This document shows positions 1 through 59,009 of a stretch of DNA of 64,000 bases, piece after piece (the first letter of the stretch is position 1; every line of letters starts with the position of its first letter). The DNA lies in assembly GCF_000165425.1 (NCBI RefSeq), contig NW_001799266.1:62001-126000 (forward strand), read 5' to 3'. The notes under the pieces were generated by a model. It ran no database searches. It was given only the letters and a program-made list of their open reading frames with translations, and was not told the origin of the DNA. This DNA comes from Paramecium tetraurelia. Lineage: Eukaryota; Ciliophora; Oligohymenophorea; Peniculida; Parameciidae. The position numbers and the translations under genes were made by a program.

Positions 1-785
1 TCAAGAATGTTATTCTGAATTAAATTAAAGAATATTAGACATAAGCAGAAATTTAGATAATGTTATTTAATAAAATTCTTAATTGCTTTAAGAAAATGAA
101 TAACATAAAAATAAAATAGACTCAATGAAGTAATTAGAGTAAAAGTATTATGATTTACTTTAAGAGAATAACAGGTAATGTTAATAAATAAATTCAATCA
201 TAAATGATAATTGTTAACTGAAAAAGATTTAATAGCAATATGAGGCAGAATGTAAGGGATATCAATAATAAATTTTAAAATTATAGGAGAAGTGTGAAGT
301 GCTATAAGCCTCTTTATAGGATTAAAATGATTCAAAAATTTTATAATAATAAATTAATGAGTTATTATAATAATAATAAGAGTAAAATAAAATTATTGTA
401 ATTAAAATTAATAATAAATTAGAGTTTAATCACAGATGAAGCCTTGTATTTGGGACAAATGACCTTGTAAACAAATGATTTGTTATAGAAGCAATAGGGT
501 GACATCCCTACTTCAATAAGGGTGTTACAAAAGGATTTAAATAACAAGAAAAGTGCTATTCAGCAGAAAATGAAAATTTTATAGCAATTTGGAAATAATA
601 TGAAGATAAAGCAATGCATTTCGCATAATAGTTCATTCAAAACGAATTCTGATGTGGATCTGTTGGAGAATTTGGAAAATGATGTAATTCCAGTGAAATT
701 TTAACAATAATCGAATTAACATAGTGATTTAATGATGATGTTGGTGGTGTAATGCCATACAATAGAAAAGATGATTGACTTTTGA
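1..785 (+). CDS. Coiled-coil protein, C-terminal part (5' end outside window)
   Basis: The frame is open from base 2 (code 6) and ends at TGA 783-785. A 25-nt intron lies at 398-422 (GTAATT...AATTAG). The exons sum to 253 codons including the stop, which supports the splice. The visible protein begins with a long Gln/Asn/Glu/Lys-rich stretch with heptad-like spacing of Leu and Ile, so a coiled coil is likely. It continues into a less charged tail that starts SLITDEALYLGQMTLQTNDL and ends TIEKMIDF. No catalytic motif is seen and no family is recognised. It could be a cytoskeletal or basal-body scaffold, but that is only a guess from composition. The N-terminus lies outside the window. Confidence 0.75.
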
Positions 786-958
786 TAAATAGATATCTAT
801 ATTTAAAGCTATTTATATAAAAATATAGATATTTAACAATTAAGCGGCGAAGATGAGTGAAATATTGATTAAAATAGTAATGTATTAATAAATAGCACTA
901 ATAAATATTCATTCCATTATTTTGCATAAAAATAAGATTTAATATTTAAAATATTAAT

Positions 959-3202
959 ATGAAACCTAATTCTGAGATTCTTTTATGCTAGATGTATTAG
1001 CTGGGACCAGATAAATGGAATTATGTAGATATTGGTTATACGCATATCAATTCGAAGGTAAGAGGTTTAGAGTAGACAATAATAGAACGAATTGATTTTG
1101 CTGCAGAAGGACACGAGTCAGGAAGTGATAGTTGTTCCAATAAAGTAAGAGAATGAGTTTTGCTTTGATTAAGGTATGGATAAAATTTAAATTGCAATAG
1201 AAGAAGCAATCTAATTCCATTGTGTTTAGGACTATGCCTTGAGTTTTCAGAGTAGAGAAGGTGCAATGGGAGTTTGGACTCGTATTCAAAACATTTTGGT
1301 GGAGAATGAGGCTGAGGATTAAGATTCAATAGCATTGACACCCGTTTCTGAAACAAATTTGGAGACTATTTTGGATACGATGAATAACATGATAGCATAC
1401 GGTTCTCAATCAAAGTAGATGTTGTTGAGTTATTTGATCAATAAGAAAGTAAAAAGTGATATTGAGTGTGTGTTAGGAATATTTCGATAAGCTTATAAAA
1501 TTGTTCCAATAGTTGGAGAAGGACAACAATACCAATCTGTTATAAACAATGTGTTAGATTGTGAAGAATGTATAAATCCATATTGATTGTGATTAGATAG
1601 TTACAGTGGCGGAACATGAATTATTTTAAATAATCCTGAACGATTAGAATTATCTATTTATTTTCGGTGCATTAGAATGTATGTTATTTGTAGATTAAAT
1701 GTTATTAGATGATACTGAGATGAACAAGAAGAATTTCGTGCCCCACCGTTAGTATTTAGAGAAACATGCGTAATTCTTGCAAGTAGTCCAAATTAAGAGT
1801 AAAGAGCGACTTAAAACCATTCATTTCATATATCGGCTGCAGTACTTGCGCGATTGTGGTTTGGCCTACTACATCGACGAGTGCCAGTTGATGTTCATAA
1901 AGATAGTTTTAACGTAATCAAAATCATGATAGATTATAAAGAGTTGTTATGTTGACCTCTTTAAGTACATTGAAAATTCGAAGGATTTTTTGATAGAAGT
2001 CATTGACAAATTAAGAAATTTCAATTTCTTGGCATTGCGATTCCTTTGCGAAATTTGTTCAGTCTTTAAAGAATTTCCAGATGTATAACAGTGATTCATT
2101 ATTACTAGTTGAATAAAGTAGTCATCTATTAGAAACTCAGTGAATACGGGTTGTATGAGATAATTGAAGATTACATCAACGATTCCCTAAAGGGGTTTGA
2201 GAAGTACAAAGCCAAATTAAAGAAACTCAAATTAAAGATATCTGTAATATATATTCATAATCTCATTAAAGGATGATGTGTTCACTAAGATACCAAATAT
2301 GATATTGGAATTGTTAATAGTGTGTTTATAACATTGTCCCAACTATTTCAGATAGTATGTTATCAGTGAACATCAACAAGTACTGAAATATCCATTTTTC
2401 AATATCATTGTGGAAAATGCCTTCTAAAATGAATTGTACATGGAGGCATTGAAATTGATGATCGACAATAACTCAGAAGAGTAGAATGAAACTATGGATT
2501 TATTTTTACTGCAATTCTATCCGAAAATCACTGCCTAAATCTCACACACAGCCACCAAAGAATTCAAATAGCAATTTTTAGAGATCACCTTAGGGTTGGT
2601 CAGAGCTATGAAACCATAGGTTAAGGAGGCAGTGATTTTGAATTAAGTGGCATTGAAAGTTGGCTTCGTTTTGTAAGAAAACTAAAAGCTATTGTAAACT
2701 AAGTGTTTGCAGATAATTAAACTGATTTGTCTGTCTAGAGATGATGACATTAACAATGAGATTACAATGATAATCCCTAATTTAATTAGTGTTATTTTAG
2801 CGTATAAGGGATTGAGGGAAAACCTAATATTTTCTTAACAATTAGAAATAATAAAAATAATTTATGAGGGGATAAGTTAAAAATTGATTACATCATTAGT
2901 AAGATTTTGTTAATAACTAATAGGAAGATGAATTAAAGAGAAGAGAAAACCAACCAAATTATCAAAGAATACATGAAATTTTCAAGAATCTTAAAAACAA
3001 TTGCATGAAATAATAATTCAGTTCATAGCCATAATAATAAAGCCAGATGTAATCTAGATACAATGTGGTAGTAGATGATGAGATGGATCTATTCATATCA
3101 GTTCAGGGACACAGCAGCCCTCATCTTGTTAAACAATAAAAGAAGACTTAGGATCATGAAGAAGAAGTAGATTTAATAACCAAGAAAATAAAGATTGATT
3201 GA
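959..3202 (+). CDS. PP4 regulatory subunit 3 (SMEK/Psy2 family)
   Basis: The N-terminal region resembles the SMEK EVH1/PH-like domain: WNYVDIGYTHINSK, then, after a 29-nt intron, DYALSFQSREGAMGVWTRIQ, which parallels the family's LALSFQEKAGCDEIWEKI. A helical-repeat region follows, with FGALECM, the family-typical HRQYLEKHAQFLQVV and YRLQYLRDCGLAYYIDE. The tail is acidic and Ser/Gln-rich and ends KKIKID. Several short introns are visible (for example a 30-nt intron near 1917). Stop is TGA 3200-3202. The family targets the protein phosphatase 4 catalytic subunit to substrates in DNA repair, centrosome and stress pathways. The gene converges on the GTPase gene with 73 bp between stops. The family call is strong; not every exon border was fixed. 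Confidence 0.85.
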
Positions 3203-3275
3203 ATTGAAAAATATAACATAGAACAACATAAAATAATCTATATATATATATATATTTATGCACTATTTGATGCAA

Positions 3276-4012
3276 TCATTAAATTGAACATTTTCCGCTT
3301 GCATCAGCATTGTCATTCGAATTACTCTTTCTTTGAGTTCCAGTTTAAGTCTTAGCTGGTCCTGAAGTTTGAGATGTTTATTGTGGGAATTTCTTTTTCA
3401 TGGCTTGTTTAATGGCTTCTAAAAATATTTATTTTATATTGGTTCCATTAAGTGCACTGCATTCAATGTACTTGCATCCCAGATCTGAAACCACTTTTTA
3501 GGCTATGTTAAAGGTAACAAATTTATTCTCATTAACATTTTCTGTTGGTCTCATATCAATTTTATTTCCTATAAATATCTTGGGAGCATTAGGTTGATCT
3601 GCTTGCAATTCAGGATACCACTAATACAATTGATAAAATTCGGTTACTTTTTTAATCGCATTTTAAAATGAACTTGGCTCATCTACTGAAAATGTAATTA
3701 AAAACACATCGCTTTAAGGATAACTGATAGATCTCAATTATTTATATTCCTCTTGTCCTGCTGTATCCCTTCGTTATTAATATAATTTTAGAATACCATA
3801 AATTAAGGTTTACCATTTTGTTCTCATATAACACTTATGCACAATAATTCTCAAAAATAGTTGGTACATAATCAGTCGGAAATTTGTCCTCAGTGTATCT
3901 ATTATTAGTCCTCTCCTATTTACCTTATCAATATGCATGTCTTCCCAACACTACCATCACCCACAATGACTAATTTGATAGAAATCGCTGAATTGGCTTA
4001 ATTATTATTCAT
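3276..4012 (-). CDS. Rho/Rac-type small GTPase with CaaX-like tail
   Basis: The G1 loop is VIVGDGSVGKTC, switch I contains DYVPTIFENY, G3 is DTAGQEEY, G4 is GNKID and G5 is ECSALNG. The YVPTIFENY switch and the later WYPEL segment point to the Rho family rather than Rab or Ras. The predicted protein has 227 residues and ends CSIQ, which fits a prenylation CaaX box. Introns of 25 nt (3899-3923) and 28 nt sum correctly to an open frame. The gene presumably acts as a membrane-attached switch for cytoskeleton or polarity. Its ATG (4010-4012) overlaps the TGA of the upstream SAM-FHA gene. Either the 5' UTR lies inside that gene or the two are spliced together (see findings). No insert helix typical of animal Rho was obvious. 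Confidence 0.85.
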
Positions 4013-5191
4013 TTAATATTATTTATATTACACAAATAAATTTTCTCATACCCAAGTCTAAATTGTCTATCTTACGTTAACTTTACTCTCTCACTACACT
4101 GCCCTTGTTCACTCAATCTAACCCAAACTCCATTTCTACTACCCATGTCTTCCAAAATCAACCCATCATTCGTGTAACTAAATTAGGCATGAACACCAGA
4201 CAAATGCTAACTCCATATATATCATAATTACCGTATCCATCCTAAATTGATCTAACTATCTGCCAAACTTCAGACAATTCTGATTCTTAACTAATTAGAA
4301 CGAGAACTTTTAATTCTTCTGTACTCCCTCAATCACTCTCAATACAACATCGCATTATTGATTACTGCCATTCATCTACTCTATTTTGTATTGCATGCTT
4401 CCCATATGTAAGATCAATCCCAATCTCATCAATGAAGGTTGCATCAACAATACGAAAGTCCCAGAAGTGCTACCAGTATCTTTCAAATAAAAGTTCTTTG
4501 TCTTCTGATCAAATTCAATCTGACAATGATTTCTACTCACATAATCTTCACCCAACACTAAAGTATTCTCTGGGTTTCTTCCTATACTAAGTCCCTTTTC
4601 TGACACACTCACTTTCTAATTATCACCTATGCAAACCAGTTCCATAGTATGCATGGATTCTGTCTACTTAATTTGGTTTGGGTAGGATGGAATCTTAGTG
4701 GCTTCTAGATTTTGTTTTGGCTACTTTAATATCTGAGGGGCTTCGACTACTTTCATTGATTCTACCAATTCAACCTTGTGATTATCTTGGAAGCTATCTC
4801 TTCTTGGTTTGAAGTCATTCAATCTTTAGATTGGAGTATAGTCAAGATTTTCCTTGTTTACAATCTGTTTGCTTGCAATTGACCATTCACTTTAACCGAC
4901 ATTATTTCTAACAAATTATTTATATTCGATGAATCCATTTTGAATCCATTATAAAATCTTCTTCTTTTTCACATTTGAACTGATTCCCAATTCATTCAAA
5001 TCGTCATCATTTAATACTTCCAAACAAGCCCCATCAATTGCATTTCTTTCTATTATATAAAATTATCAAGTATTACAAAAAACATCTGATAAATCCTGTA
5101 ACCCAATAAATTCCAACCACGATTCAACATCACATTGAGTCCATCTGCGAGGTTCTTTGGGAATCACACTAAATAATTTCTGATAATCCAT
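4009..5191 (-). CDS. SAM domain plus two FHA-like domains protein
   Basis: The protein begins MDYQKLFSVIPKEPRRW and has a SAM-like domain in about residues 10-70 (WTQCDVESWLEFIGLQDL; later LNDDDLNELGI). A basic, Gln-rich linker follows. The first FHA domain is clear: LSIGRNPENTLVL, then VSRNHCQIEF and DTGSTSGTFV, giving the conserved GR, S/RNH and S.G positions. A second FHA-like half has LSGVHAQF and EDMGSRNGVWVRL. Introns of 27 and 25 nt bring the reading frame to 377 codons including the stop, a clean multiple of three. SAM and FHA are protein-interaction modules, FHA for phosphothreonine, so a signalling adaptor is likely. Its TGA (4009-4011) shares bases with the next gene's ATG. Confidence 0.8.
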
Positions 5192-5895
5192 TAAATTTAA
5201 ATTTAAATTATATATTTATAAATTAACAATCACAAGGTTTAATTATTCATCTTTCCCATGTTAATTTTCAATATATATATATATTATTTTTATTCTTCCT
5301 ATTCCGCCACGATTATCTTTTATTTGTAGAGTCAAATCTACTAATATTTGTTATTATTATTAGCAATAATCTCAGGTAGATTTGTGATTTTCAAAGGGCT
5401 AAATTAATCTTAGTTTTTTCAAATTGAATTCTTCAAATTTAAATAGTTGGAGTAACACCTACAAACTCTTCTTTTTAATAAGAAATTTAATAAATTAGAT
5501 TATATGATGAACCCTTTATTCTTATTTAATTATTTTATAATATTAAAAACAATTATATATTGGAATTCATTTACATTGTGAGACAAAGAATCAAATTTTA
5601 ACTAAGTATTGACTTCAGAAACTAAAATGAAGTTTAATTCTTATTTGGGAATTAAACGCTATTATTTTCATTTTATTAATCTTGCATAATTAATAGACTC
5701 ATAGAATAATAGATCATTTATTATTACACATCTGAATCAATAAATAATTTTCTATGAAGTAAATTTTATTTAATATGATAATAATATTAATTTGAAGATG
5801 ATTAGTATTATAAGAGCAGTTAATTAGAATATTTAGTATAATAATCATAATTAATTCGAAATACTTAATCATCATTATCAATATAATTAAAGTTA
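5192..5895. other. Intergenic AT-rich stretch between divergent genes
   Basis: About 700 bp of AT-rich sequence lies between the divergently oriented SAM-FHA gene and the small unknown gene. I found no convincing reading frame under code 6 with recognisable motifs and no RNA gene. A TA dinucleotide run occurs near 5272-5284. Both promoters should be here. Confidence 0.6.
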
Positions 5896-6486
5896 ATGAT
5901 ATTTTCAATTTTCAAATTTCGCTTTGGCACAATACAAACAAATTTCCCAAAGCTTTCATTCAAAGTGTTAGATTTTCAGACAATGAAGGAAAGAAATCCA
6001 ACCCTTATTTCTGACTCTGATATTCAAACATTATGTAAGATGCATTCATTGAATTCAACATGGAAGATAGTAAATTATTTATAATAAATAGACTCCTCAA
6101 AAATTATATAGGGAAATCAAATTTAACAATTTTAAGGAAGCCTTTTCCTTTATGAATTAAGTAGCTATTTTTTCAGAGCAAATAGATCGTATTACAATAT
6201 TCTAATCTTAGATCATCCTGATTGGGAAAATGTATATAACTTAGTTAAGATTAATCTGAATACTCATGATGTTGGAGGCATTTCAATTAAAGACATCTTC
6301 TTGGCTTACGCAATAGTAATAATTTGTGTTATTATTTAGGATACAATAGCAATGAATGTAAGAGTGAAATCCGCAGAATCAACCAACGACACTCGTATTT
6401 TGGAGGTAGCCAAAATTGCAGAATCTTGGAATTTAAATTTTGATCAATTCCATAGAATGATTGAAACAGATTCTAGATAAATATGA
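5896..6486 (+). CDS. Hypothetical protein, about 190 residues
   Basis: An open frame under code 6 runs from ATG 5896 to TGA 6484-6486. It encodes [14 protein letters not shown]..., then a central [17 protein letters not shown] and [15 protein letters not shown], and it ends with a helical segment ([20 protein letters not shown]). A 24-nt GTAATA...TTTTAG-like stretch near 6319-6342 looks like an in-frame intron. Removing it also keeps the frame, so the protein has 196 or 188 residues. No signal peptide, membrane segment or known family was recognised. It converges on the trichocyst gene with only 24 bp between stops, so the 3' UTRs must overlap or be extremely short. Confidence 0.65.
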
Positions 6487-6510
6487 ATATTGTATATGAA
6501 TATGATGATT

Positions 6511-7681
6511 TCATTCTGACAACTTTTGATTGATGTATTCAATTAATCTATCGACGATATCGATTTCAGTTTATCTAAATTAGATTAGATAGATTACCTA
6601 CTAACTTTTTGATTACTGTATTCTTGGTCTTCCAACTCGTTGATTCTAGTGGCATCTTATATATTTAATTAGGTGACTTCAACAATAGCATTGGAAATAT
6701 TGATTAATCCATCTAATTCGTTTAATCTTGATTAGATCTCCTTGAGTCTGTTATTAGCAGTGGCCAAAGAGACTTATAAGGTTTGCTTTTCATTTCTCAA
6801 ATCATCACCCAATCTACTGAGATTCTCAACTTGAGTCTTATGGTTGGCTTCTAATTAATCTTAACCTTCTTATAATGCAGTGATCAATCTAGCAACCAAA
6901 CTCAAGACGTTGTTCAAGGTTTCTGGGTTGACTTTTGTTGTCATTTCAGCCAATCCTTCAATGATTGGTTGGAATAAGGTCAAAGAACTTTTCTTTGTGT
7001 GAGCTTCTAAGATCTCCTTGATCTTCTAAAAGTTCTCTTTGGTTTAAATCAAATTGCTCTTAGTGTCTTAACTAAATATTTAAATAACTCTGATACGTTA
7101 ATTGAATTAATGATGCTCCTTCACCTCTTAAATTTAACAACAATCTTTGAGCTTCTTTGCAAGCAAGAATTGCATCACTATAGTCTTAAAATTTAGCTGC
7201 AAAATCTGTGTTCTCAGCATCTAATCTACTTTAAGCATCACCACTTCCTCTGCCATTTCTGTCTAATGCAGCTTAATCTATGAAATTATATTGTGTGAAC
7301 AGTACCTTCTTTTACTCTTGTTTATAATGTGCTCAATTCATTGGTTAAACTTGATTATTCTTATCTTTGGTTATCAAGATCTTATTCAGCTTATTCAAGT
7401 GTGGCTTAGAGTTTGGCCAAATCAACTTAGCTTCTTCTTGTGAATGTTGCATTTTCTTAATCTTGTAATTATGTCAAGGCAATCAATTCATCCTTAATTT
7501 ATTATAAGAGCTATTTTAATTCATTTAATGATCCTCCTGTTTTCATGTTGACACTCACTAAGTTAATCATAGATGAACCAAAGGGATGATCTCCATATCC
7601 TGAAAGTCTTTCTTTCAATTCAGAAACTGTGGTTGCCTAAATGCAGGCAATCAAAACAACAACCAACAAAGCTGATTTCAT
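6511..7681 (-). CDS. Trichocyst matrix protein (TMP family) precursor
   Basis: The protein starts with a signal peptide, MKSALLVVVLIACIQATT, as expected for a precursor entering the secretory pathway. Almost all of the remainder is Gln-, Glu-, Leu- and Ala-rich alpha-helical coiled coil (for example DLAKLQATLEQAEQDLDNQ), as in the Paramecium TMP family, whose processed products crystallise in the trichocyst core. Three introns of 28, 25 and 23 nt reduce the gene to 365 codons including stop, an exact multiple of three. Length and architecture fit the family, whose precursors form heteromultimers. TMPs belong to a very large multigene family, so I assign no specific member. A less likely alternative is another secreted coiled-coil protein. 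Confidence 0.85.
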
Positions 7682-8205
7682 ATATTATTAATAAAAAATC
7701 AAAAAACAGAAAAACGAATATTATCTCAATCACAAATATTACTTCACTCAAATCATTTTTTGAATCCTGAACTCTCCATTTTTCACTTAATCTCTCTTCT
7801 CCTTTTTTAATTACATCAATCTCAATCTACTTTTCACATTCCCTTATCTCATAACTTAAATATTTGAAATGATATTCTATCAAAATTAAAAGATACTGTA
7901 ATGAATCATAGTGTTGTAATTTTAATAAAATAATAACGTAATCTATCAGAATCCAATAAGTTGTATTTAATCACTAATGTTGTTCAAATCTCAAAAATGT
8001 CTTCTTACTTACAATAAATTAATATTTAGATTAGAGCATAAAAATGATTTTAGTAATAAAATACTATGGAAAATTGAAGAGATTGCAAAGTTTTTAACTG
8101 AATTTTAACTAAATTCTAGTTTCTTAGAAATAGGTTTGAATATTAAAGATAGAATAATAATGAAAAGAATGTAAATTATATTATATGATATTATTTTATT
8201 TATTA
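7682..8205. other. Intergenic AT-rich stretch
   Basis: About 520 bp separates the trichocyst gene start from the SPT5 stop. I saw no credible code-6 frame, repeat or RNA gene. It should contain the trichocyst promoter and the SPT5 3' end. Confidence 0.6.
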
Positions 8206-10675
8206 TCAATCATTACGCATAGGGGTTTGATAAGTGATGTATGGAGATTGATATCCTCCTCGCATAGCTGATTATTGAACACCTTCAAGATCATCCCAAA
8301 CTCTTGTTGACATGCCTGGATGATGTTGTGGGGTTTTTCCAACTTGAAGATGGGAGTTTGAAGATTCGGATTTTATACATTCTAATGGAACTTTAACAAC
8401 CAAATTTTTAGCTGACAATTAGATTGTGGCAACTCTACTGGTGACTTCTTGGACCATTCCTCTGTAAGATTACCATTGTCCTTTACGAATGGTAACCATC
8501 TGTCCTCTGAGATTTTTCCAATCTTCATTGGGCATTTGGGATATAGTGTTGGCACCAGGATCTGGCTTTTTGGAGGAAGAGACTAGACCACAATTGTTGG
8601 CTTTTTCTATGATTACTCCTTGGGTGTTGTCAAATTTGCCATTGAATAGGAATAAATAATCTCTATATACATGTAGGACAGTTGCTTTGTTATCTAAATG
8701 AAATTTGAATAATAAATACTTTTATAGAAACCATCCAATATGACTACTAGATCCTATTACCTGATGTCATTACCATACATATTTTTGACCACATTGTTTC
8801 TTGTGTTGATGGAGTTTCTGATAGCTAATTTATTGATATTTTTGATTTGATTGGTTAAATCGAGGACACTGACTTCGTTATTGCTGATATTGAGGATACA
8901 TCCGATATCATTATCAATCAGACCGAACTTGACTAGATCGTTTCTCTTGAATCCTGGTTTCTGTTGTCCAGCTCCAGCATCTGGATTCTCTTCGATGTCC
9001 ATTTTTTTAATAACATTTTTTTATGATTGGAGATCTGAAATCAAAGCATCAACAATTCTGCCAGCTTCAGTGGATATCTGAGCAGTCAAATCATCCATTT
9101 TGATAATGGTACCACTTAATCCAGTGTTGGGTCCAGAGACAATGGAAACTTATTGATAAAGTTTGAAGGCCAATTTTGCTTCACTGATATCTAGTTTATA
9201 TTCATAGTTCCTTTTCTCATTATTATTCTTATTTTTAACAGTCTTGCTAATAATGAGTTTGTTCTCATCTTATAGGATTTATGAAACCTTGTATCTGGAG
9301 GATTTAGCTTGATCGTGAGTGAGAGTGATGTAATCTCCGATTTGAATTTGGGACTTTTGTTCAACCACTTACTTCAAACTGGAATGAAGTTTCTAGAGGA
9401 TCAACCTATAATCCTGGACATCGGGATAGAAGTATTACAAGTCTTCTACAGTGGGTTTGATATTGCCAGTAAGAACCTGATGAACTGGAAGAGTGATGAT
9501 TTCAAATCCATCCTTTTTAGCAGATGTCCATTCATCTCTAATGGTAGTATAGAAGAATTGGGAAGTAGGTTCGTCATTGTCATCATTAATGGATTTCTTG
9601 GTCATCTAAATAGGTATTTTAGGACCACGAATGTATTTCCTTTGTTCTTGAAGATACTTGGCTCTTTTTAAGAACTTGAATTTGCTGCCTCTTTAGAAAG
9701 GCTCATTGTCTTCAATGGGTGGTTCACCTTCTTCTTCTTTCATTTGGAAGCGAGATTGATCTGCATTGGCATTATTCTTTTTGGAATTCTTCTTTTTATT
9801 TTCTTCCTCTTCTTCAAGAGATTTCATTAGTAATTTTTGTCTGGGAACTACTTTGAGTTTGATAAGTTTTCTCTCTTGATCCACTTACATGACTCTAGCA
9901 AGATCTCCAGAGTAAATGTTGTGTTGTCTAACTCTGACCCATTGGCCTTCTTCAATGTCTATTTATTCGACTTCAGCAGGCTTGAACATGTTTGGACATT
10001 GTTCAGATTCAACCAATTCAGGTGGACATTGTCTAACAATAGTCAGACCCTCGATGGCTCTCATGACATGTTGTTCAAAATTGGCTTCGATGAAAATGGC
10101 TGCTGGGAATTTTTTGAGTGCAAAGACTGATACAATTTCAAGTGGATTGGTGTCTATCAAGTGATTATGCTTAAACATGATCGATGTCACAGCCTCTTGT
10201 TCTTTGCCCTTATTACATGAAACACGCCAAAACTTTACTATAAATGATTAAATACTTTGGGGTCTCTGAGACCTGGTTTTTCAATTTCATCTTCTGATTT
10301 GTCCACATCATCCCCAATTTATATATCTTAATCTCCATCTTGATATCTTTCCTCGATTTGCTTAACAACATCTCTGTGATGTTTTCTCTTGAGGGCCAAT
10401 TCGTTGTACATCTGCTCTTGCTTTCCCTTCGTAATTTCCCCTACTGAATTGTCATCTGACTCGTTGTCTGATGTTTCAGACGCTTCTGTGTCTATGAACT
10501 TTTGCTTATTCAATCTTGTCTTCTTCTAGTTCTTTTGTTTCTTGAGTAATTTCTTGCTCTTCGACTACTTGAATTATTCTGACTCTGAAGAATCAGGAAG
10601 GTCTTCAATTGAATCAATAGAAGACTGACTTTTGTCATCCTAATCACTTCGATAATCGTCATTTTTTTAGCTCAT
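8206..10675 (-). CDS. Transcription elongation factor SPT5 (NusG/KOW family)
   Basis: The N-terminus is acidic and Ser/Asp-rich (MSQKNDDYRSDQDDKSQ...), as in eukaryotic Spt5. After a 23-nt intron comes an NGN-like domain with FWRVSCNKGKEQEAVTSIMF, then EIVSVFALKKFPAAIFIEAN and the HVMRAIEGLTIVR segment. Several KOW-type modules follow, including IGDYITLTHD, LYQQVSIVSGPNTGLSGTI, FKRNDLVKFGLIDNDIGCI and GQMVTIRKGQWQSYRGMVQE. The tail is Gly/Arg/Pro/Gln-rich and ends SPYITYQTPMRND, a rudiment of the repeat-containing C-terminal region. Spt5 with Spt4 binds RNA polymerase II and controls pausing and elongation in the nucleus. Splicing around 8700-8760 was not fully resolved. The upstream side carries the ~54-bp repeat array. 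Confidence 0.9.
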
Positions 10676-13667: not shown

Positions 13668-14454
13668 TCAATGCAATTTTAGAACAAGAATTGTTACTAA
13701 TACTCCTACAAGAATGATTGCACAAACAGCTAAAACAATCCATTTCTTAGTTGTCGACTTCTATGAATCTTAGGCTTTGTCTAATTCAACAATGGCACCC
13801 TTTATGTTCTAATCTGCAGTTTTTTGGTTGACATCAATGATATCAAGAATTTCTTCTGCTTTGTTGACCTCAAAAGCCAATTCTCCCACTAATTTATTAA
13901 GCATTTGGGCTTCACGATCCTATTTAATTTAAATTGAATACAATTCTTTGAATCTCTTCCTCTCTCTCTCTTATCATCTGATTATCAACATCATATTAAT
14001 CATGCATCAATTACTCTTACAATTCATCAGCAGGTTTTGGTTTAGGGTCATTCCACTTAGCTTACGAGTTCATGGCTATAGTCTTTCTTTTCATTTGCAA
14101 TTTTTGTTCCACTTGCTTGCACACTTAGGTAAATTTGTCGATCTCTTTTTTGTAGAATTACTTGATTTGTTTCATTCTTTAATAGCTAAAATCGAGTGAT
14201 ACTTCTGTTGACGACCTGATAGATGTCCCGTGTTATTGTCAAGTCTTTGCATGTTATTTTGGAGTTGTTTAAGTAGGTTTTGTATCTGATCTTGCAAATC
14301 AATGACGTCTTGGCCAATACTAGAATTATTAACATCTTTATGATCTTGATCAAATTATTCCACATTATCGTGCAATTCAGTCAATTATGATTAAACTTGC
14401 TAATATTTTGAATTATATTACTTCAACTAGTTTATTAAATGTGCTGTCCTCCAT
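13668..14454 (-). CDS. Syntaxin-like SNARE, tail-anchored
   Basis: The protein starts MEDSTFNKLVEQ, with a 22-nt intron early. A Gln-rich helical N-terminal half contains RLDNNTGHLSGRQQKYHSIL. A SNARE-type heptad region follows (DREAQMLNKLVGELAFEV, then LDIIDVNQKTADQNIKGAIV) and ends in a single C-terminal membrane anchor, WIVLAVCAIILVGVLVTILV. This layout fits a Qa- or Qb-SNARE that drives vesicle fusion. Where syntaxins have the central ionic-layer Gln, alignment by eye places Ala (NKAEEILD), so its SNARE class is unsure. The stop is 17 bp from the kinase stop and the start is 17 bp from the next divergent gene's ATG. Confidence 0.75.
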
Positions 14455-14471
14455 TATTAATAATAAATTAA

Positions 14472-15146
14472 ATGAATAATAATTAGAACTAGCCTCCAAC
14501 AATATCAAGAATCATCCCTCCTCCCTTTGCCAATTAATAATAGGCTCTCCAGATTGAGAATGTCTCTCTCAAGACCCAAGTTTAGAAGTTATAAGATTAG
14601 TTGAAAGACGCCAATGTGAAGAACACTTAACTTTAACACCAAAATTAAGAACTATAAAGTACTAACCAATCCTTGTTAACCCAATTAAATCAAAAAAATT
14701 AGAATTCTATAATCAATTAGTTACAATTTACTTTATATTTTAATAGAAATTCGAATGAAAATTAAATATTAAAAGATAAATGTATAGAACTACAATTGCA
14801 CAACCAAGATTTGCTATAGAAAATAACCTAGTTAAGTAAAGAGAAGCAGGAGAAGCAGTTCGTTGAGATAAAGGTAGTAATCACACCTAAATCTAAGTCC
14901 TATTTACAATATTCTCCAAAAGTTTAGGAAGAGACCATCTGCTTGAAGTGGACCCAGAAAATAGCGAACTTACAAATCAAATACAAAAGTAAAGGCAAAG
15001 CTGTTGAGTTTGAAGGCTATGGAGAGATATAAAATAAAAATGTCATTTTCTAATGCCAATGTGATTTGTCCAAGATGCCTGTAGATAATTAAGAACCGCG
15101 GATAATATTAAAAGAGTGTGAGTTACATTTAATTTATCAAATTTGA
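14472..15146 (+). CDS. Coiled-coil protein with conserved-looking C-terminal domain, unknown
   Basis: The frame (225 codons including stop) begins MNNNQNQPPTISRIIPPPFA and runs through a Gln/Leu/Lys coiled coil (IENVSLKTQVQKLQDQLKD). It ends in a beta-rich segment with FVEIKVVITPKSKSYLQY, ETICLKWTQKIANLQIKYK and a Cys pair in FQCQCDLSKM. A 27-nt GTTACA...AATAG stretch near 14712-14738 probably is an in-frame intron, because it encodes an out-of-character hydrophobic patch. No family is recognised. The start lies 17 bp from the divergent SNARE start, so the promoters must lie within the neighbouring coding regions. Confidence 0.7.
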
Positions 15147-27254: not shown

Positions 27255-28598
27255 TCAAGAACAAATTGAACCTGACCATGCTTTTCCTTACAATCTACAT
27301 TAAACTTTATTTTTGTCTGCAGTAACTCCTAATCCCGTAGTTATATAATAATTAATTCCTGTATTAAGAGGTGTTACAGTGATACTACTTGAGGTACACT
27401 ATTTAGCAACCATATTGCAAGTAAAGGTGACTCCAGTTTCTTAAGTGATTCCTGATTCTTGAACATTATTAAAAGGAAACTTGAATAGTTTAAGATTGGC
27501 AGCAACAACGGTTAATAATGGGTCAGTCCAAGTCCATGTGATAATTAATGGTTTGAAAGAAGTATCAAAAGTATTTTCACCTACATTATAAACTAGGGCT
27601 GGGGGGCTTCCAATGATTGGTCTTATACAGATGACATCTGAGTATGCATTTCTAATTCCAAACATTTCAGGAGGAAATGAATACACCATTACAAATCCAT
27701 TTTAAGAATAAGCATATCCTGACCAATCGATTTTGGTTGTGTGTTGTTGTCCATTAATAGTGATTGAGTTTCTTGAGTAAGGAATGATGGCAAAGTTGAT
27801 GATGTAGTAATTTGTTTAATAATAATTAGGTTAAAAGTTGACCATTCTAAATAAAGCAATGAGGGTAACTGACCATATTTTTTGGATTAAGTTATCTCTC
27901 ATTGTATTTTATGGAGTGGTTTGTAAAACAATGAAATCCTAAGATTGATTTATTCATATACTCTCAGCATTTGTAATGATTAGTAAACAGTTCGTTCTAA
28001 ATAGAAAGGGTGCGAATCTGGCATAGTTTGTAATGCAGTTGCCAGAGTTTTATACTAAGTTAAGATGGCTCCTAAATATGATTCAAAATTGGCAGCAGTA
28101 GGCAAACTCGTAAACGACGGCATGATTTTCCAAGGGTTTACTGTGTACAATTAGAAAATGGTTGCTGAATTTTATGTGGTCAGAGATGTTAATGTTGTTG
28201 TGCCATCACTTGCTTTATCATAATAGCCATCGGTGGTTTTGGTAAATCTTACAAAAGCATAATTTAGTTTGCCTTCAGATTTGTCACAACAAACATTATC
28301 ATATTATAAACTGAATGTTTCCAGGGAATCGCAAAGAGTGGATGCACCTCCAGTAGGTAATCCAGAGCCTGTTCTACAAGCTGCAACTTCATCAATCATA
28401 TAGCATGGAAGGGTTTAGCAAGTGCTATAAAGAGAATTAATTTATAAATTACGTTTCCCAATAACAATATCCAATTCCAGAAATTACACTTGAAGTGCAA
28501 TCAGCGCTTATTAATCCTGTACAAGGAGTTTCTGCAACGTAGGTGTAAGCAGTGGATGATGTAATCAAATTTACGATTAATAAAATAGGAATTATCAT
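27255..28598 (-). CDS. Cysteine-rich secreted protein, first-listed tandem paralogue
   Basis: The frame starts MIIPILLIVNLITSSTAYTY, a signal peptide, then has Cys-rich modules (ETPCTGLISADCTSSV; CYWETTCQTLPCYMIDEVAA; CDSLETFSLQYDNVCCDKSE). A central region follows (NPWKIMPSFTSLPTAANF; KIDWSGYAYSQNGFVMVYSF) and it ends QGKAWSGSICS. Introns of 28 and 23 nt give 431 codons including stop. There is no C-terminal hydrophobic tail, so it is probably secreted or lumenal. The same order (signal peptide, Cys modules, helical middle, Trp/Tyr-rich beta region, Cys tail) recurs in the next two upstream genes. The family is not recognised; a surface or secretory-granule role is only inferred. Confidence 0.75.
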
Positions 28599-28655
28599 AA
28601 TAATATTATAGAAATATAAAATATTATTTTCTGATATTAATATTTATGTTCTTCA

Positions 28656-29865
28656 TCAACATTTTGATAGTCTCTTATATGGTTCTGTAGATGCGATTGT
28701 TGCACAGTTGGAAATAGTATCATGATGGAATATCATCAATTTATCTATTGATGCAGCTGGAACTGGAAAAGTTGGGCATGTAGTGACTGTAGTAACAACA
28801 TATGCACAAGTGACTGGAACTGCAACATTTGCAATTGGCGCAAAAGCAGCTGCAAATAATTTGTCAAATGATTAAGTATAGACTGCTGTGTAAGTAGCCG
28901 TATTCACCCAAGTGTATTTAATACTTACGGGAACATCTGTAGTTGTTTGGTCTGTACCGTCATCCTTAACTATTTTGATCCAAATTAAGTCAGACAATTG
29001 TTTTACACTAATAATTCCAAATTATTCTGGAGCCAATGTCATCACATATATGTATCCATTATTAGCATATGTTGCCCATGTGAATTCAATTTCGTAGGTC
29101 TTAGTAGTTATTACAAGTTTTTATCTATTTAAATCTGAAAATCCAAAATTTATGAAATCATAGTTTTAAACATAGTATGCTTTGTAGCTCCAATATCTCT
29201 AGAAGAGAATGTTCACTAAATCCCAAGCCTTAGATAACTAAGCAGATCTTGTAGCCAGTGTGTATGTAATATCATCCTATATTTAATAACAAAATATTTA
29301 CCCTGATGCTCTAAAAGGTCTCAATCACAGCCTTTTCCAAGAACTTTGGTTATACTGCATCTGTAATCAATTAGTTGTATCCGTGATTGAAGGCATCTAA
29401 TATTGCAGTCAACTAAGTCGGTGATGCTAAAAGAATGTCTAATGTAAATAATTAATAAGTGTATTTTTATGGTGTGGTTGTTGTTGTCAAAACTGAAACA
29501 GGGGTCTCTGATAATGTGATATCTGGTGATCTAGTTATGTTTGCTTACCTTCTAAATCGTAAAAGTCCATTTGGAACACTGGTTTCTGCTGTCTTCACAC
29601 AAATATTTTCATATTTATAATCGATGTTAAAAGCTATACAATTAGCTATTGTATTGGCTGCTGGTGATAATAAGCATGCTTAGACTTCGCTAACTCTATA
29701 ACAATCTGTAATGGTTTGGCAAGTGACTGGAGAATAACTACTGACTTAGCAATTTCCTGCCATCTTGCAAAGAGTTGCATTTGTAATCGAACTGCAAGTC
29801 TATAGAGTGAAGGCGGCCTTTATTATTTCTACTAAGGATAAACTTAATATAATGAATTGCATCAT
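28656..29865 (-). CDS. Cysteine-rich secreted protein, second tandem paralogue
   Basis: The frame begins MMQFIILSLSLVEIIKAAF, a signal peptide. N-terminal Cys modules follow (LQTCSSITNATLCKMAGNCQ; CQTITDCYRVSEVQACLLS; NCIAFNIDYKYENICVKTAE). The middle is helical. A Trp/Tyr-rich region occupies about 29000-29170, and a Thr/Val/Cys tail (VPVTCAYVVTTVTTCPTF) ends RLSKC. At least two short introns are present (near 29280-29310 and 29520-29560); exact borders were not fixed. The domain order matches the flanking genes, and the spacing to the previous paralogue is only 57 bp. Probably a secreted or surface protein. Function unknown. Confidence 0.7.
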
Positions 29866-29912
29866 CTAATTAATTATATAAATTATATTTAATAATATAT
29901 TTTCTTTCTAGC

Positions 29913-31070
29913 TCATGTACAATTACCTGTAGAATCAGTCCAATTACATTTACCAAGTCTACATTCTGACTAAGATCTCCCGCCACAATCATTTATGTTT
30001 TTATCACCGAATATATAAGCCCTTCTTCCTTACCCACTTAATGTTCCCCCACAACTTGAAAATGGTGAACAAACTATGCTAGTATTTGTTTTTTACATAT
30101 TAGTTAGGTCTATCGAATGGAGAGTTTTCGAAAAAAATGCTTATTGGTTTCTATGATAAAATTGTAATTTTCTTTGATTTACTATTGTATAACCATTTAG
30201 ATCTGATGCCCTTATCACTATGATATCAGAATGTATTGAATAAAATCCAAATTACTCAGCAGGCATAACCAATACTTCAAGATAACCAGGCTATACATAC
30301 TCCCAAGTGATCTCAAATACTTAAAATTGAGTCTCCAATACTATTTTCTCTAATTTCAGATTAGCAAATCCAAAATTTATCAAATATTTATAAGAAATAT
30401 ACATATTGAGTTTTTATTTTCTGAGTTTTTAAAAGAAGGCATCAGTCATTCCCCATAAAGCCAAATGAAATTAAAATTTATTAAATGTAGTTGAAGTATA
30501 TGAGATAGTTTCATCATCTCTTATTTATTGCATGCTCTCATAAATGGCTTTCTCCAAAAATGCTATAGGTATGTTGTCATCATTGCATAACTCATTTGAT
30601 TGTTATAGATATCCATACATGATGTTTAAGAGATCATTATTTTTGGCCTTCAAAATATTTAATGTTAAAATTTCTGATTTAACCTGTGTTGGATACCTAT
30701 TTGTAGATATTTTGGATATTTAAAAACCACTTGCCGTGGTGTAAGTAGAATTTTGAGTATTGTCTTGAGGGTAGACCAAGTATCCCCACATCAAAGTATC
30801 CTAATCATACTCAATACATAAATTTTAGAATTTGGGATCCAGATTTGGACTTATTTTACATCTTTAGTTCTAATATAAGTACCCTGATAGTTTTCCTGAA
30901 CATGCTCTTGGTTCTGTCACTTTATGACATTCAAGTAGTTTACATACTCCAGATATCCAATCACAATAGCCTGAAGCGAAACAATTATTTTGATGATAGG
31001 TACTACAAGCTATCTAATACCCATCAACCACAATTCCGAATATGGCAATTAGTGTTAAGATTATTTTCAT
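29913..31070 (-). CDS. Cysteine-rich secreted protein, third tandem paralogue, intronless
   Basis: A single frame of 386 codons including stop, with no intron. The signal peptide is MKIILTLIAIFGIVVDG. N-terminal Cys modules are CSTYHQNNCFASGYCDWISG and VCKLLECHKVTEPRACSGKL. The helical middle includes FLEKAIYESMQQIRDDETIS. A beta-rich region has VFEITWEYVQPGYLEVLVMP, and the Cys-rich end has CSPFSSCGGTLSGQGRRAY and CGGRSQSECRLGKCNWTDST, then GNCT. The C-terminal CGG..S..C..G.C.W module mirrors the N-terminal one, so this copy preserves the layout best. It belongs to the tandem family at 27.2-31.1 kb. Likely secreted; role unknown. Confidence 0.75.
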
Positions 31071-31198: not shown

Positions 31199-31894
31199 AT
31201 GCAAATTTACATTATTATAATTATTCTTATGATCTATTCAATTGCAAGAAACTCATTCTCAGCAATCTATTCGACAATTAAAGATGTCGTAGACTATTCA
31301 AGCACTACAATTTATGATATGTTTATTTCTCATCCCATAACTTCATTGACCTACGAGAAACTATGTGAAAGACTAACAGGATAATAATAAAGAATCCTGG
31401 ACGTAGGAGTGGGCACTGGAGTTCCTTTGAATTAAGCTCTCAATAGATTCCCAATAAATTGTGAGATCACTGCCATCGATATCAATCATAACTATTTAAG
31501 AAAGGCAACCCAATTATTTAAAGACAAGCCTTAAGTAAAATTATACGAACTAGATTTCTACCAAATGAACTCAGAAACATATGGAACATTTGATGCTATT
31601 GTATTCTCTTCCTCATTTCTATTACTTAATTAACCAAAAGAGGCTCTTCAATTAGCCATCTCGTTACTTAAACCGGGTGGCAATATATATTTTATGGTTA
31701 CTTTATCTGACTCCCATTTTGGTGATACACTAAAGTATATTACTAGTATAGATTTGCATTTGCAATCTGAAAAAGAATTTGAATAGATGATATAATAATC
31801 TCAGCTCAAAATCAATTACAAGTAACGATTACAAAAGGTAACAAACATAGCCACTCTGCTTTTTAAAGTTATTATTTATGAAACTAAAATATGA
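31199..31894 (+). CDS. Class I SAM-dependent methyltransferase with N-terminal membrane anchor
   Basis: One frame of 232 codons including stop. The N-terminus, MQIYIIIIILMIYSIARNSF, is a signal anchor. Motif I is RILDVGVGTGVPLNQAL, motif II is ITAIDINHNYLRKATQLF (acidic Asp at strand 2 end), then YELDFYQM, motif IV FDAIVFSSSFLLL, and LLKPGGNIYFMVTL as post-motif. These are the ordered core motifs of a Rossmann-fold methyltransferase of the Methyltransf_11 kind, which often acts on small molecules or lipids. The substrate cannot be told from sequence. No intron is needed. The upstream divergent gap to the secreted protein gene is 128 bp. Confidence 0.8.
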
Positions 31895-53746: not shown

Positions 53747-53824
53747 TGTTATATTTTATAAGTAATATAAAAATCATAAATCTCAAGTCGTTCATAAGAA
53801 AATACAGGGCATTTAGTTTAATAC

Positions 53825-53898
53825 GCCCGGATAGCTCAGCTTGGTAGAGCGAGAGACTCTTAATCTCTAGGTCCAGGGATCGAGACCCTGTTCGGGCG
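53825..53898 (+). tRNA. tRNA-Lys (anticodon CTT)
   Basis: A 74-nt cloverleaf: acceptor stem GCCCGGA pairs with TTCGGGC (one G-T pair) plus a G discriminator. The D arm is GCTC...GAGC, the anticodon arm AGAGA-CTCTTAA-TCTCT gives anticodon CTT, and the T arm is CAGGG-ATCGAGA-CCCTG. The loop differs from the usual TTCGANNC start by carrying ATCGAGA. No intron and no encoded CCA. It reads AAG. It has nothing to do with the reassigned TAA/TAG codons. Confidence 0.95.
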
Positions 53899-54126
53899 TA
53901 AATTTTTTATTTTTATAATTTAATTAATTAATAATTGATTAATAATTATTAAATATTAAATTTTAAATTACATTCATTTATACTCATAAAGCAACTAATA
54001 AATGATATTCATTTTTATAGAAGACTTAGTATTAATAATAGACAATAAATGGAAAAAATTAAACGGAGTGGTTTGGAAGGAATATAAATTATAATTGATT
54101 GGATAATATATATGAAAATGATATAA
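53899..54126. other. Short AT-rich intergenic stretch with tRNA terminator region
   Basis: A T-rich run (ATTTTTTATTTTT) directly follows the tRNA (53901-53913), the expected RNA polymerase III terminator. The rest is AT-rich spacer before the convergent PiggyMac-like gene stop. Nothing else seen. Confidence 0.6.
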
Positions 54127-56064
54127 TCATTTACTTTGTCTATTCATGTAGGATTATTAATAAGCTTCTGAATTACCCAATGTTGATTGTTCGAACTATG
54201 CGGACTATTAAAGAACTGGTAAATCCATGGCAGATTGAACGTATTTCTTAGGTTCTTAATGGAAGAGTGAAAAGCATTCAGTAGCACACAGGGTTATCAG
54301 TTTTCCTGAAATTTCAGAGCATGATTCACATTCTACCATTTCTGTAGGAACCTTTTTACAAACAAGACAAACAAGTTTATTTTGTAATTTTGCAGGAGGA
54401 TTACATTTTCTTGGGACATGGAAATTGATCTTAGGCAATAGTTCCATATCTTGAGGATTGAAACTACCCATAATATCAGTCACAATTCCGATAGTTGAAT
54501 ATCTTGGTTATGCAGTTTGAAGATTGTGATGTGTTTCTGAAACATTTGGAATATTCTTCATTTTAGTTCTGAGTAATTGTTTAGCTAGAGTAAGTCTAAA
54601 CTCTAAGAAATTGATTTGAGAATTTACTTTCTGAATGCTTTTAAATGCAATGAAACTATTCCAAATGACGATCTCTTACATTTCAGTATAGATGGCTCCA
54701 TTGACAGTGGCTGAAGAGAACAAACACTTATAAGCATCTGATAGAGCAGGATATTATTCTACTAATTTAATGTATTCCTAATAAATGACAACTGCATAAC
54801 TCTTTTTATCTTGACTGGTGTTTCTGTGAAATCCATCAGCAGTTGAAGCAAAGACTTTGAAATCAGCTTAATTAGGAGTGAGCAATTTAAGCAACATCAC
54901 ATGATTGTTTGTTACAAGTCCATCTTTGAAGTCTATCTTCTGTGTTTAAGTAGTTGATGCCAAAATACCACATGAGTATATAGCAAAGAATTCCACTAAT
55001 ATTTGCACTTACTCTAGAGTTAGCAATTCCTGCTGGAAATATAATTTGTGATTCTTGTGTTTATATGGATCCAACATGTTAAATATTGTGTTGCTGACGT
55101 TTTCCCTAAAACAAAATCGAATGGCTATTATATATTGTGTTTGTACATCCATAAGCAATATACATTCGATTGATCTCCCTTATAGATCTTAGGCTTCAAA
55201 TAGATTGTTTTTAATAACTGCCAAACATTGACCTGCATCATGAGATATCCTAAATTTCTTATTCAATTTCTTTGTTAAATAGCTGTAGACTTCTCCTTCC
55301 ACTTTGAATTTCTTCTCAACATCCTCCTATTTCAAATTGTGATACTTTGCTTGAATCATCACCTCATCTCTCAAATTCGTATTTTATTCCAAGAACTTAA
55401 ACCTACCAACTTTGATTAATTCTCCGATCTTATTACGGAATGGCAATTTATCATTAAAATAGTCTTCTGGATCAGGCATTCTATTGTAACCCATCAGAAT
55501 TTTCACTCCAAAATATTCGTATATCTAATCCAATTTAAATAATCTCTTTTTAACATCCTTCTCATGTTACTCTGAAAAGTGATCCTTCATCTAATCATTA
55601 ATCATTTTCAAGATGCTCTAAACTATTTGTCTATGAAACAAAGAGTAATAAATGTCCTTTGCATCATTTGTTACTTATGATTTCCAAAAATTATAAGCAT
55701 TTCTATCTCCTTAAAATGGTAACTGCTTTGTCGTTGTACTTGAAGCATTAATTGATTGCCATTTGCTTTTTGAATAAAAGTCTGGATTCTCTGCCAGTTT
55801 TTTGCCAACTTGCAATCGCAATTACTCAGATCTTATAGTTTATCCAGGTGCATGCTCATGTTTCAAAGGTTCTTATTTATCTAATTTGATTGGTGCTGCT
55901 GGTAACTAAACTTCACAATCAATTACACTTTGACTTATCTGATTCTTTTGGTTATTTACTTCCACTACTGCTTGCTCTTCTTCATTATTATTATTATTAT
56001 TAATTTATTCTTGTGGATTCTAATCTTCAGCAACCTCTCTATCGTTTTCTTATTCAATATCCAT
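54127..56064 (-). CDS. PiggyMac-like domesticated PiggyBac transposase
   Basis: A single frame of 646 codons including stop. An acidic, Gln/Asn-rich N-terminus is followed by a PiggyBac-type core: YEYFGVKILMGYNRMPDPED, DYFNDKLPFRNKIGELIKVG, RFKFLEQNTNLRDEV, ISHDAGQCLAVIKNNLFEAQ, KLYFQQELLTLEQVQILVEF, then GILASTTQTQ, DFKVFASTADGF, VVIYQEYIKLVEQYPALSDA and TEMQEIVIWNSFIAF. These line up with the order of PiggyBac blocks (DNFFTS, GT.R, ST, YN..M..VD, W). Near residue 565 lies a Cys-rich zinc-binding module (CLVCKKVPTEMVECESC...C...C). Only the first acidic position (SHDAGQ) seems kept; the second DNF block reads FQQ. In Paramecium, PiggyMac and its Pgm-like partners excise internal eliminated sequences during macronuclear development. 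This resembles a catalytically inactive partner. Confidence 0.75.
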
Positions 56065-56621: not shown

Positions 56622-59009
56622 TCATGGTTTTAAGTATTTAAAAATAGATTATCCTCCATTTTGTTCATTTTCATATGCTTTATTGATTCCTCTATTAGTT
56701 TTTCTTCCATTTTAAAATTCACCTTTGTATAATAAAATTTTTTTTTCTTCTGCTTTGACAATCTCCCACCCCCATATTATCTATCCATATTTAAATATTC
56801 CAAATTATAAAGTCTCTTGGTTTATTCTCTGAAATCCTTATCCATGAGGCTTATCATTGACTAAGTATCCAATATAGTTTTTTTTAATTTAAATACTGCC
56901 AAATTCTTTTAGATAATCTAAGTACTTGTAATCTACTTTAATCCTTACACTATATTTTTATTCGAAAAACATTTATATTTCCTCACATAATTCTGATGGT
57001 AACATCCCATAAGTCAACATTATTTCTGCATATTTTTGTCTAAATTTGTATTTGAGTGATGGATATATATGATTGACTCCTGAAATAAATTATTAGACAT
57101 CTTATTTATTTTTTATTCCAATATCTATGCAGCTGAATAATGTCTTCAAATACTGACTTTTGAGTTTTGCTGATATAGATTGATATTCTTCAAAGCCTAA
57201 TAAATATTTAAGTTATTTTTCGTTAATGAACGCTTGAGCCTTCTACCTGGTTCTTAATGCTAAATTAAATGGGAATTATTCAGCACCATATTTCTTTTTT
57301 TCCTCCTCCTTTTTTTCAAGAGTATCTTTATATTCTGGTAAACCTTTTAAATAATAAATTGAAATTATCTTTTATTAAACTTAACTCAACTTAACAGGGA
57401 CTTAGGCTTCGATTTTAAGTTCTTTTTTTCTTAATTTGATTAAACCTGCTATTTTTTTAGGTGAGAAGTATGGCTTAGCTTCAATATTTGTAAGTTAATC
57501 TGTTACTTCATCAGGAATTTAAAATTGCTTCTTCCATTAAAGAATATTTGCTTCTTTTAGATTATAATAATAAATTATATCTTCTTCTGGCGCTTCCATT
57601 TCATAATTATAAAAGTATTATAGAGCCTACTTCCTATTTTCTACCAGAAATATATTTTCTTTAAGCTTCTCAATGTTATTTTTATGACTTTGTTGTATCG
57701 CTTCATTTTAACTTGTTTCTCTCTAAGAGATCTCAGAGAGTTCAATCAGCAATCTCATTAGATCATCCAAATAGGATTAAACCTCTTTAAGATCAAGTTG
57801 AAGTAACATATGAAAATCCAAAAAACACCAAAGTTTTTGTTCATTATTTTATTAAAAGAATTTTCCCAATTCAGGATAAATTTATTTTTGTACTAATTGG
57901 AGAAATTTATCCATTGCTTAAATAGTCCCATATTTAGTGACCTTTGCTTTACAACATGTTACAGGGTTGGGAAAGGTTCTATTGAATTCTGTAATTATAG
58001 AGCTCGTGCTTAATTAACCTTGCTAAACAATTACACTGGTTGGAAACTTTTAGGATATATTTAACTATACATTATATTAATATGGTTATTATTATTATTA
58101 TTATTATCTTTAATTTTCAGGATAAAACAGCATCTATAATCCTTAACCTATTTGACTATCTATTAGAGTTATTTCGTTAATTTTTTTGTCTAATTCTACT
58201 TTTTATAAAGCATAAAATGTTTCAATTGGTGGATTGATATAATCTTTAGGATAAAATATTTGAATAATGATTACTCCAATAGCCCATGCATCTAGATTAA
58301 AGGAATTTTAAGGAACATTCAGAACATCTTCGAATTATTTTTATCGTTTCATTTATTCTCTTATATTATCGAACTCAATAATTCTCATATCATAATCTGG
58401 CAAATTTTAAATGATATCTAATATTATCTTAGGATTATAAAAATAATAATCTTTCTGCCAGTTCTATTCTGACCTTCTATCAAATTATTAAATATAATTC
58501 TAATGAAATGTTCTATTACTCCCAAAATCTGAAAAGAAAATATCATTATCATAAAAGAATACATTATTAGGTTTAATATTTTGATGGAAAACATTACTTG
58601 ATCTTAATATGTTATAAACTTCTAAGAGTCTCTTGCTCACAAATATTTTTCTTTCTATTCCTGGCGCTTGATTTTTGATATATTTTAATATTGGAGCACA
58701 TTTATCATCATTATAATATGCAATCATTACAACTTTTCTATTCTTATTTTCACTTTGGAATATAGTAAAATTCTTAATTTCCAAAACACAATTCTTATTA
58801 TTAAGGCTTGTTTAGATTTTAATTTCATTTCTAATTTCCTCTATAAAATAATCTTAATATTATCCTTGAATCCTTCTTTTCTTAATCCAAAATACTTCAT
58901 TTTCATTCCTGCTTTTATATTATATGGTAAAAGGTTGATCATTCAAATTTAGCTTAGTAAGAGGACTATATTTTCTATAGAAGTCATCTTTGGTCAATTC
59001 AATATTCAT
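56622..59009 (-). CDS. Pseudokinase with C-terminal MORN-type repeats, intronless
   Basis: One frame of 796 codons including stop. The N-terminal ~280 residues resemble a protein kinase: VVMIAYYNDDKCAPIL, then RLLEVYNILRSSNVFHQNIK, PNNVFFYDNDIFFSDFGSNR, later FNLDAWAIGVIIIQIFYP. The catalytic HRD is HQN, so the catalytic Asp is missing, while DFG is kept; a typical Lys33-type VAIK is not obvious. It should bind but not phosphorylate. A helical, Lys/Gln/Glu-rich middle follows (KFLQLVQKQIYPELGKFFQQ). The C-terminus carries MORN-like units: YIGYLVNDKPHGQGF, FGIFKYGQIIWGWEIVKAEE, LYKGEFQNGRKTNRG and NGGQSIFKYLKP. It shares this layout with 37533-39929. Confidence 0.78.

Follow-up and report, generated by a model that had tools for sequence, protein, structure and literature searches.

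SAM-FHA and Rho GTPase reading frames sharing an ATGA in Paramecium tetraurelia: probably two tightly packed genes

The stop codon of a gene for a SAM-FHA-FHA protein and the start codon of a gene for a Rho/Rac-like GTPase share bases in a single ATGA on the minus strand (4009..4012) of the window, by which we mean the whole 64,000-nucleotide stretch of DNA analysed, and we consider it probable, at roughly 0.6, that these are two neighbouring genes of the same strand in which the stop of the first overlaps the start of the second and whose mRNAs overlap as well. The initial annotation had proposed either such an overlap of co-oriented genes or their fusion into one protein; the overlap can be read directly from the sequence (ATGA at 4012-4009), whereas the fusion is not favoured, since the intron that it calls for is 35 nt long and since chance supplies a comparable bridge in about one of ten such junctions. 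Two tightly packed genes are the likelier and indeed a fairly ordinary arrangement, because a fusion needs an unusually long intron. If true, the overlap is a sharp example of minimal intergenic DNA, in which the promoter of the Rho gene would lie inside FHA coding sequence.

The window and the two gene products

The sequence of the window has the character of ciliate macronuclear DNA. Under code 6 long frames appear in positions 1-9000, the standard code leaves only three ATG-started frames of at least 60 aa in positions 1-8000, and the G+C content per 4 kb is 22-34% across the window; code, composition and tiny introns fit Paramecium. Introns were predicted with an ad hoc gene finder, which gave 81, and 44 of these are better supported (margin of at least 3 nats). 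ARAGORN finds one tRNA in the window, a tRNA-Lys (ctt) at 53824-53899, and the coding starts of two divergent predicted genes at 14454-14472 are 17 nt apart. Three adjacent predicted genes on the minus strand at 27255-31070 have signal-peptide-like starts, as judged by eye, and a similar layout, and look like tandem duplicates; a Pfam scan of one of these three paralogues gave no match.

The SAM-FHA-FHA gene (4009..5191, minus strand) runs under code 6 from an ATG at 5191-5189 to a TGA at 4011-4009 and encodes 376 aa after splicing of two introns with GT...TAG borders. Removal of the first (5050..5076, 27 nt, gene-finder margin 12.6) keeps the SAM domain in one frame, and removal of the second (4207..4231, 25 nt, margin 6.5) joins the two halves of the second FHA domain, FHA2, which then scores 36.0 bits against the Pfam FHA profile and is aligned as far as the profile end (14-67 of 67). 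In the protein Pfam recognises SAM_2 at 1.9e-13 and FHA at 7.9e-23 in two stretches, and a phmmer search with the FHA2 segment against solved structures returned nothing at E 0.01.

The Rho gene (3276..4012, minus strand; ATG 4012-4010, TGA 3278-3276) encodes 218 aa ending in CSIQ, and Pfam matches the product to Ras at 1.7e-50. Removal of its first intron (3899..3923, 25 nt, GT...TAG, margin 4.4) joins ILIR to YTEDKF in alignment with Rac1, and the second (3769..3796, 28 nt, GT...AAG, margin 6.3), with its AAG acceptor, is required for the conserved LWDTAGQEEY. The third (3621..3647, 27 nt, GT...TAG) has a finder margin of only 0.8 and is a multiple of three without an in-frame stop; its removal yields NAIKKWYPEL, which aligns to NVRAKWYPEV of Rac1. 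The core is 51% identical to the piece of human Rac1 with which it was compared, the best 60 of 835 matches to solved structures are mainly Rac and Cdc42, and the family motifs G1 (GDGSVGKT), G3 (WDTAGQ) and switch I (YVPTIFENY) are present in alignment with Rac1. The protein furthermore has a short N-terminus ahead of IKLVIVGDG and a CaaX-like C-terminus in CSIQ, a predicted prenylation motif. For the two proteins NCBIfam contributed nothing beyond weak matches to FHA and to small GTPases. The domain make-up described in the initial annotation, namely a SAM domain, two FHA-like domains and a CaaX-ending Rho GTPase, is thus upheld by the Pfam matches to SAM_2, FHA and Ras and by the terminal CSIQ.

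Searches for relatives of the Rho protein in viral contigs and genome contigs and of the SAM-FHA protein in viral contigs gave none. An alignment of Rho and Rac1 matched one locus in viral contigs, at 31% identity, and eleven loci in genome contigs, and none of these 12, for all of which base composition and longest frames were listed, was recognised as ciliate. One of them (L012), read in part, has 49-60% G+C and intron-like gaps in the Rho match, and is probably a eukaryotic contaminant. Records titled Zetaproteobacteria and Maricaulis (L002-L007) hold Rho-like GTPases 40-48% identical to the Rho protein of the window, and contamination is unlikely for L004, since it is found on an 857-kb contig.

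The ATGA junction and its surroundings

Both genes lie on the minus strand, and if they are two genes they have coding bases in common on one strand. The junction is spanned exactly by a 35-nt segment (3997..4031, minus strand; G+C 4/35) that reads GTAATA...TTAAG and has GT...AG borders, making it either a candidate intron or a chance match, and once it is removed ...KIYLC continues in phase into SNSAISIKLV, with a Ser codon divided by the join, such that both the segment and the in-phase joining noted in the initial annotation stand. Four single GT...AG segments of 15-60 nt give one open frame here (35, 44, 50 and 53 nt), of which the 35-nt bridge is the shortest. Such bridges also come about by chance: when each end among 35 predicted genes was paired with each start to give 1225 artificial ATGA junctions, an in-phase bridging GTA...[TAC]AG of 20-35 nt was present in 130 (10.6%) and one of 20-28 nt in 56, and the bridge alone is therefore weak evidence. 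Its presence nevertheless counts somewhat against two genes, since chance supplies one in no more than that 10.6% of junctions.

At the junction, G+C is 8% over the final 24 nt of the SAM-FHA frame and 7% over the initial 15 nt of the Rho frame, both stretches being more AT-rich than in all 35 comparison genes, which were taken from the first gene model and some of whose starts are uncertain. In the 36 nt preceding the Rho ATG it is 11%, among the lower values of a comparison range of 3-44%. The junction thereby resembles an intron, a spacer or noncoding DNA, which counts against two overlapping genes, but a coding tail doubling as a promoter could show the same AT-rich composition. The overlap is likewise tighter than any gap between the 28 pairs of same-strand neighbours in the first gene model, which are 18-1451 nt apart and free of overlaps in a model that cannot place them; the smallest gaps are a doubtful one of 18 nt and then 35, 35 and 36 nt. 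In favour of two genes, a 16-mer around the Rho ATG, TTAAATGAATAATAAT (4001..4016, minus strand), recurs where the gene at 14472 is predicted to start. It occurs twice in 64 kb, both times at a predicted start codon, and its expected recurrence is 0.00 in 100 shuffles, with the proviso that it was spotted after the fact in a list of starts. Both products furthermore look complete, given that FHA2 reaches the end of its profile and that Rho has a short N-terminus and a CaaX-like end.

With two genes, SAM-FHA and Rho would each probably make their own mRNA from separate promoters. Given the median 5'UTR of 19 nt and 3'UTR of 44 nt in P. tetraurelia (PMC5485702), the Rho mRNA would start near 4031, within the final codons of SAM-FHA, and that of SAM-FHA would end near 3965, within the first Rho exon, such that the transcripts would overlap by ~65 nt and presumably be translated independently. 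This arrangement fits published descriptions according to which neighbouring genes of P. tetraurelia 'sometimes overlap' (PMC5485702) and intergenic DNA in Paramecium is 'sometimes simply absent' (PMC12716044). For other species of the genus, a mean intergenic region of 174 bp is given for P. calkinsi (PMC13059789), and in P. bursaria conservation upstream of genes is described as peaking in the first 50 bp (PMC7702705).

Alternative readings of the junction

The best placed of the alternatives, though an unlikely one, is that there is a single gene, in which 4031-3997 is an intron and whose product, SAM-FHA-FHA-Rho, would be 582 aa long and terminate in a CaaX motif; such a gene would combine a Rho GTPase and a SAM-FHA scaffold in one protein, and retention of the intron would meet the in-frame TGA. 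The GT...AG borders, the usable donor GTAATA, an in-phase join directly after the last FHA strand and the intron-like composition of the segment all speak for it. Its acceptor is AAG, and to our knowledge 3' splice borders in P. tetraurelia are almost only TAG. The acceptors of the 44 better-supported introns are nevertheless TAG in 34, AAG in nine (including a doubtful case of 16 nt) and CAG in one, and AAG is also that of the Rho intron within the WDTAG motif. Since AAG acceptors are used in the window, this border is hardly an objection to a 35-nt intron, the objection being its length.

Of the better-supported introns, 43 of 44 measure 22-28 nt, the exception being the doubtful 16-nt case, and the rival intron thus exceeds all of them, which argues for two genes. 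Five of the 81 predicted introns are longer than 28 nt (30, 30, 35, 39 and 40 nt), none with a margin of 3, and those above 30 nt besides the 35-nt segment, of 39 and 40 nt, both have margins below 2. For P. tetraurelia a length of 20-30 nt is given for about 98% of introns (PMC5485702), a tiny-intron range outside which a length of 35 nt falls, and a review gives between 20 and 34 nt for >95% (PMC11334263). An intron model trained on 43 introns scores the segment at -6.0, compared to -2.7 to 2.4 for the training introns themselves. The length term of this score is -8.4 and becomes -4.8 when the pseudocount is raised to 1.0, and because the length penalty hangs on so small a pseudocount, the model alone cannot exclude a 35-nt intron. 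An open in-frame ATG is found inside none of the 44 better-supported introns and inside five of all 80 others, and it further counts against a fusion that the appearance of an ATGA junction with both frames correctly placed arises in only 4.2% of random introns of 35 nt.

The gene finder picked the join under both of its settings, at a low gene-opening cost with overlaps barred (margin 2.7) and again at a high gene-opening cost with overlaps allowed, which favours a fusion and counts against two genes. However, the high-cost setting also merged the three predicted paralogues that lie side by side at 27255-31070 and have a signal-peptide-like start each, and the path score without gene or overlap priors is better for two genes by 9.25 nats. 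The gene finder cannot decide the matter, its outcome resting on priors and its intron length penalty on the pseudocount. As a control with real neighbours, five tandem pairs were picked by hand, with spacers of 35, 57, 47, 35 and 36 nt, at which a bridge of at most 35 nt reaching past the next ATG is geometrically impossible; when longer bridges were allowed, they occurred in one of the five pairs (89 and 95 nt). Of these pairs, three (28598/28656, 29865/29913 and 50052/50088) became one gene under the high-cost model, and two (15146/15182 and 50989/51026) stayed separate in both models. The high-cost model also merged two pairs that had been kept out of the control as doubtful, 40978/40997 (18 nt) and 52869/52922 (52 nt). 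The junction may accordingly serve as a warning that gene finders in such genomes can merge neighbours by way of chance GT...AG matches.

Less probable again is a combination of the two arrangements, in which splicing of the 35-nt segment would give the SAM-FHA-FHA-Rho fusion and its retention free SAM-FHA and free Rho, both made either from the same transcript or from a second one. If true, this would be a switch by which a Rho GTPase is tethered to a phosphopeptide-reading scaffold. A narrow literature search, with little bearing on other organisms, found no paper on a fusion of a SAM domain, an FHA domain and Rho in Paramecium.

We consider it very unlikely that SAM-FHA ends earlier, by way of a 29-nt (4058..4086, minus strand, GT...TAG) or a 20-nt (4086-4067) intron leading to a stop at 4048-4046. 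Such an intron has a TAG acceptor, a length of 29 nt is inside the Paramecium range, and the 33-nt AT-rich spacer left before the Rho ATG resembles the tandem spacers of 35, 35 and 36 nt. The 29-nt form would however remove the last strands of FHA2, lowering its Pfam score from 36.0 to 31.4 bits and halting the match at profile position 47 of 67. These lost residues furthermore take part in an h.hG...h.h pattern that is common to the FHA1 and FHA2 tails and occurs at 15 of 16000 noncoding positions, albeit a pattern chosen post hoc, whereas a BLOSUM62 shuffle test gave no significant similarity between the two tails (p 0.19 with the register fixed and 0.73 in the best register).

A dicistronic mRNA, on which ribosomes stop at the TGA and restart at the overlapping ATG and thereby couple both proteins, would agree with the geometry of the ATGA, one shared with stop-restart sites known from some viruses and from other dicistronic messages, but we give it very little credence, since a limited literature search found no report from Paramecium and since genes of P. 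tetraurelia usually have their own start, adjacent transcription starts being nearly all in different genes (PMC5485702). Just as improbable is a one-base difference introduced in sequencing or assembly, or else a genuine frameshift of recent date, such that a one-base change in length near the junction would give a single open frame without any intron: a shift of one base indeed separates the two frames, and ahead of its ATG the Rho frame stays open back to the TGA at 4048-4046, but indel errors seem rare, given that three long intron-free predicted frames (31229-31894, 54127-56064 and 56622-59009) are intact.

Comparison with known systems

The SAM-FHA product has the Pfam SAM_2 and FHA domains in common with SAM and FHA domain scaffold proteins. 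The Rho protein differs from Rac1 in being 7 alignment columns shorter, chiefly because of gaps of 4, 2 and 1 columns within and behind the Rho insert, and in having NKID in place of TKLD. The presence of Rho in a ciliate is unsurprising, because a table assigns Rac-type GTPases to all eukaryotes apart from Apicomplexa and Kinetoplastida (PMC2651865) and because Tetrahymena encodes Cdc42 according to a review (PMC6813674). As for the arrangement of the two genes, the closest likeness is to the overlapping or abutting genes of P. tetraurelia (PMC5485702, PMC12716044), and although a 4-nt coding overlap was not encountered among the cases described there, the ciliate code, the tiny introns and the very short UTRs are the same.
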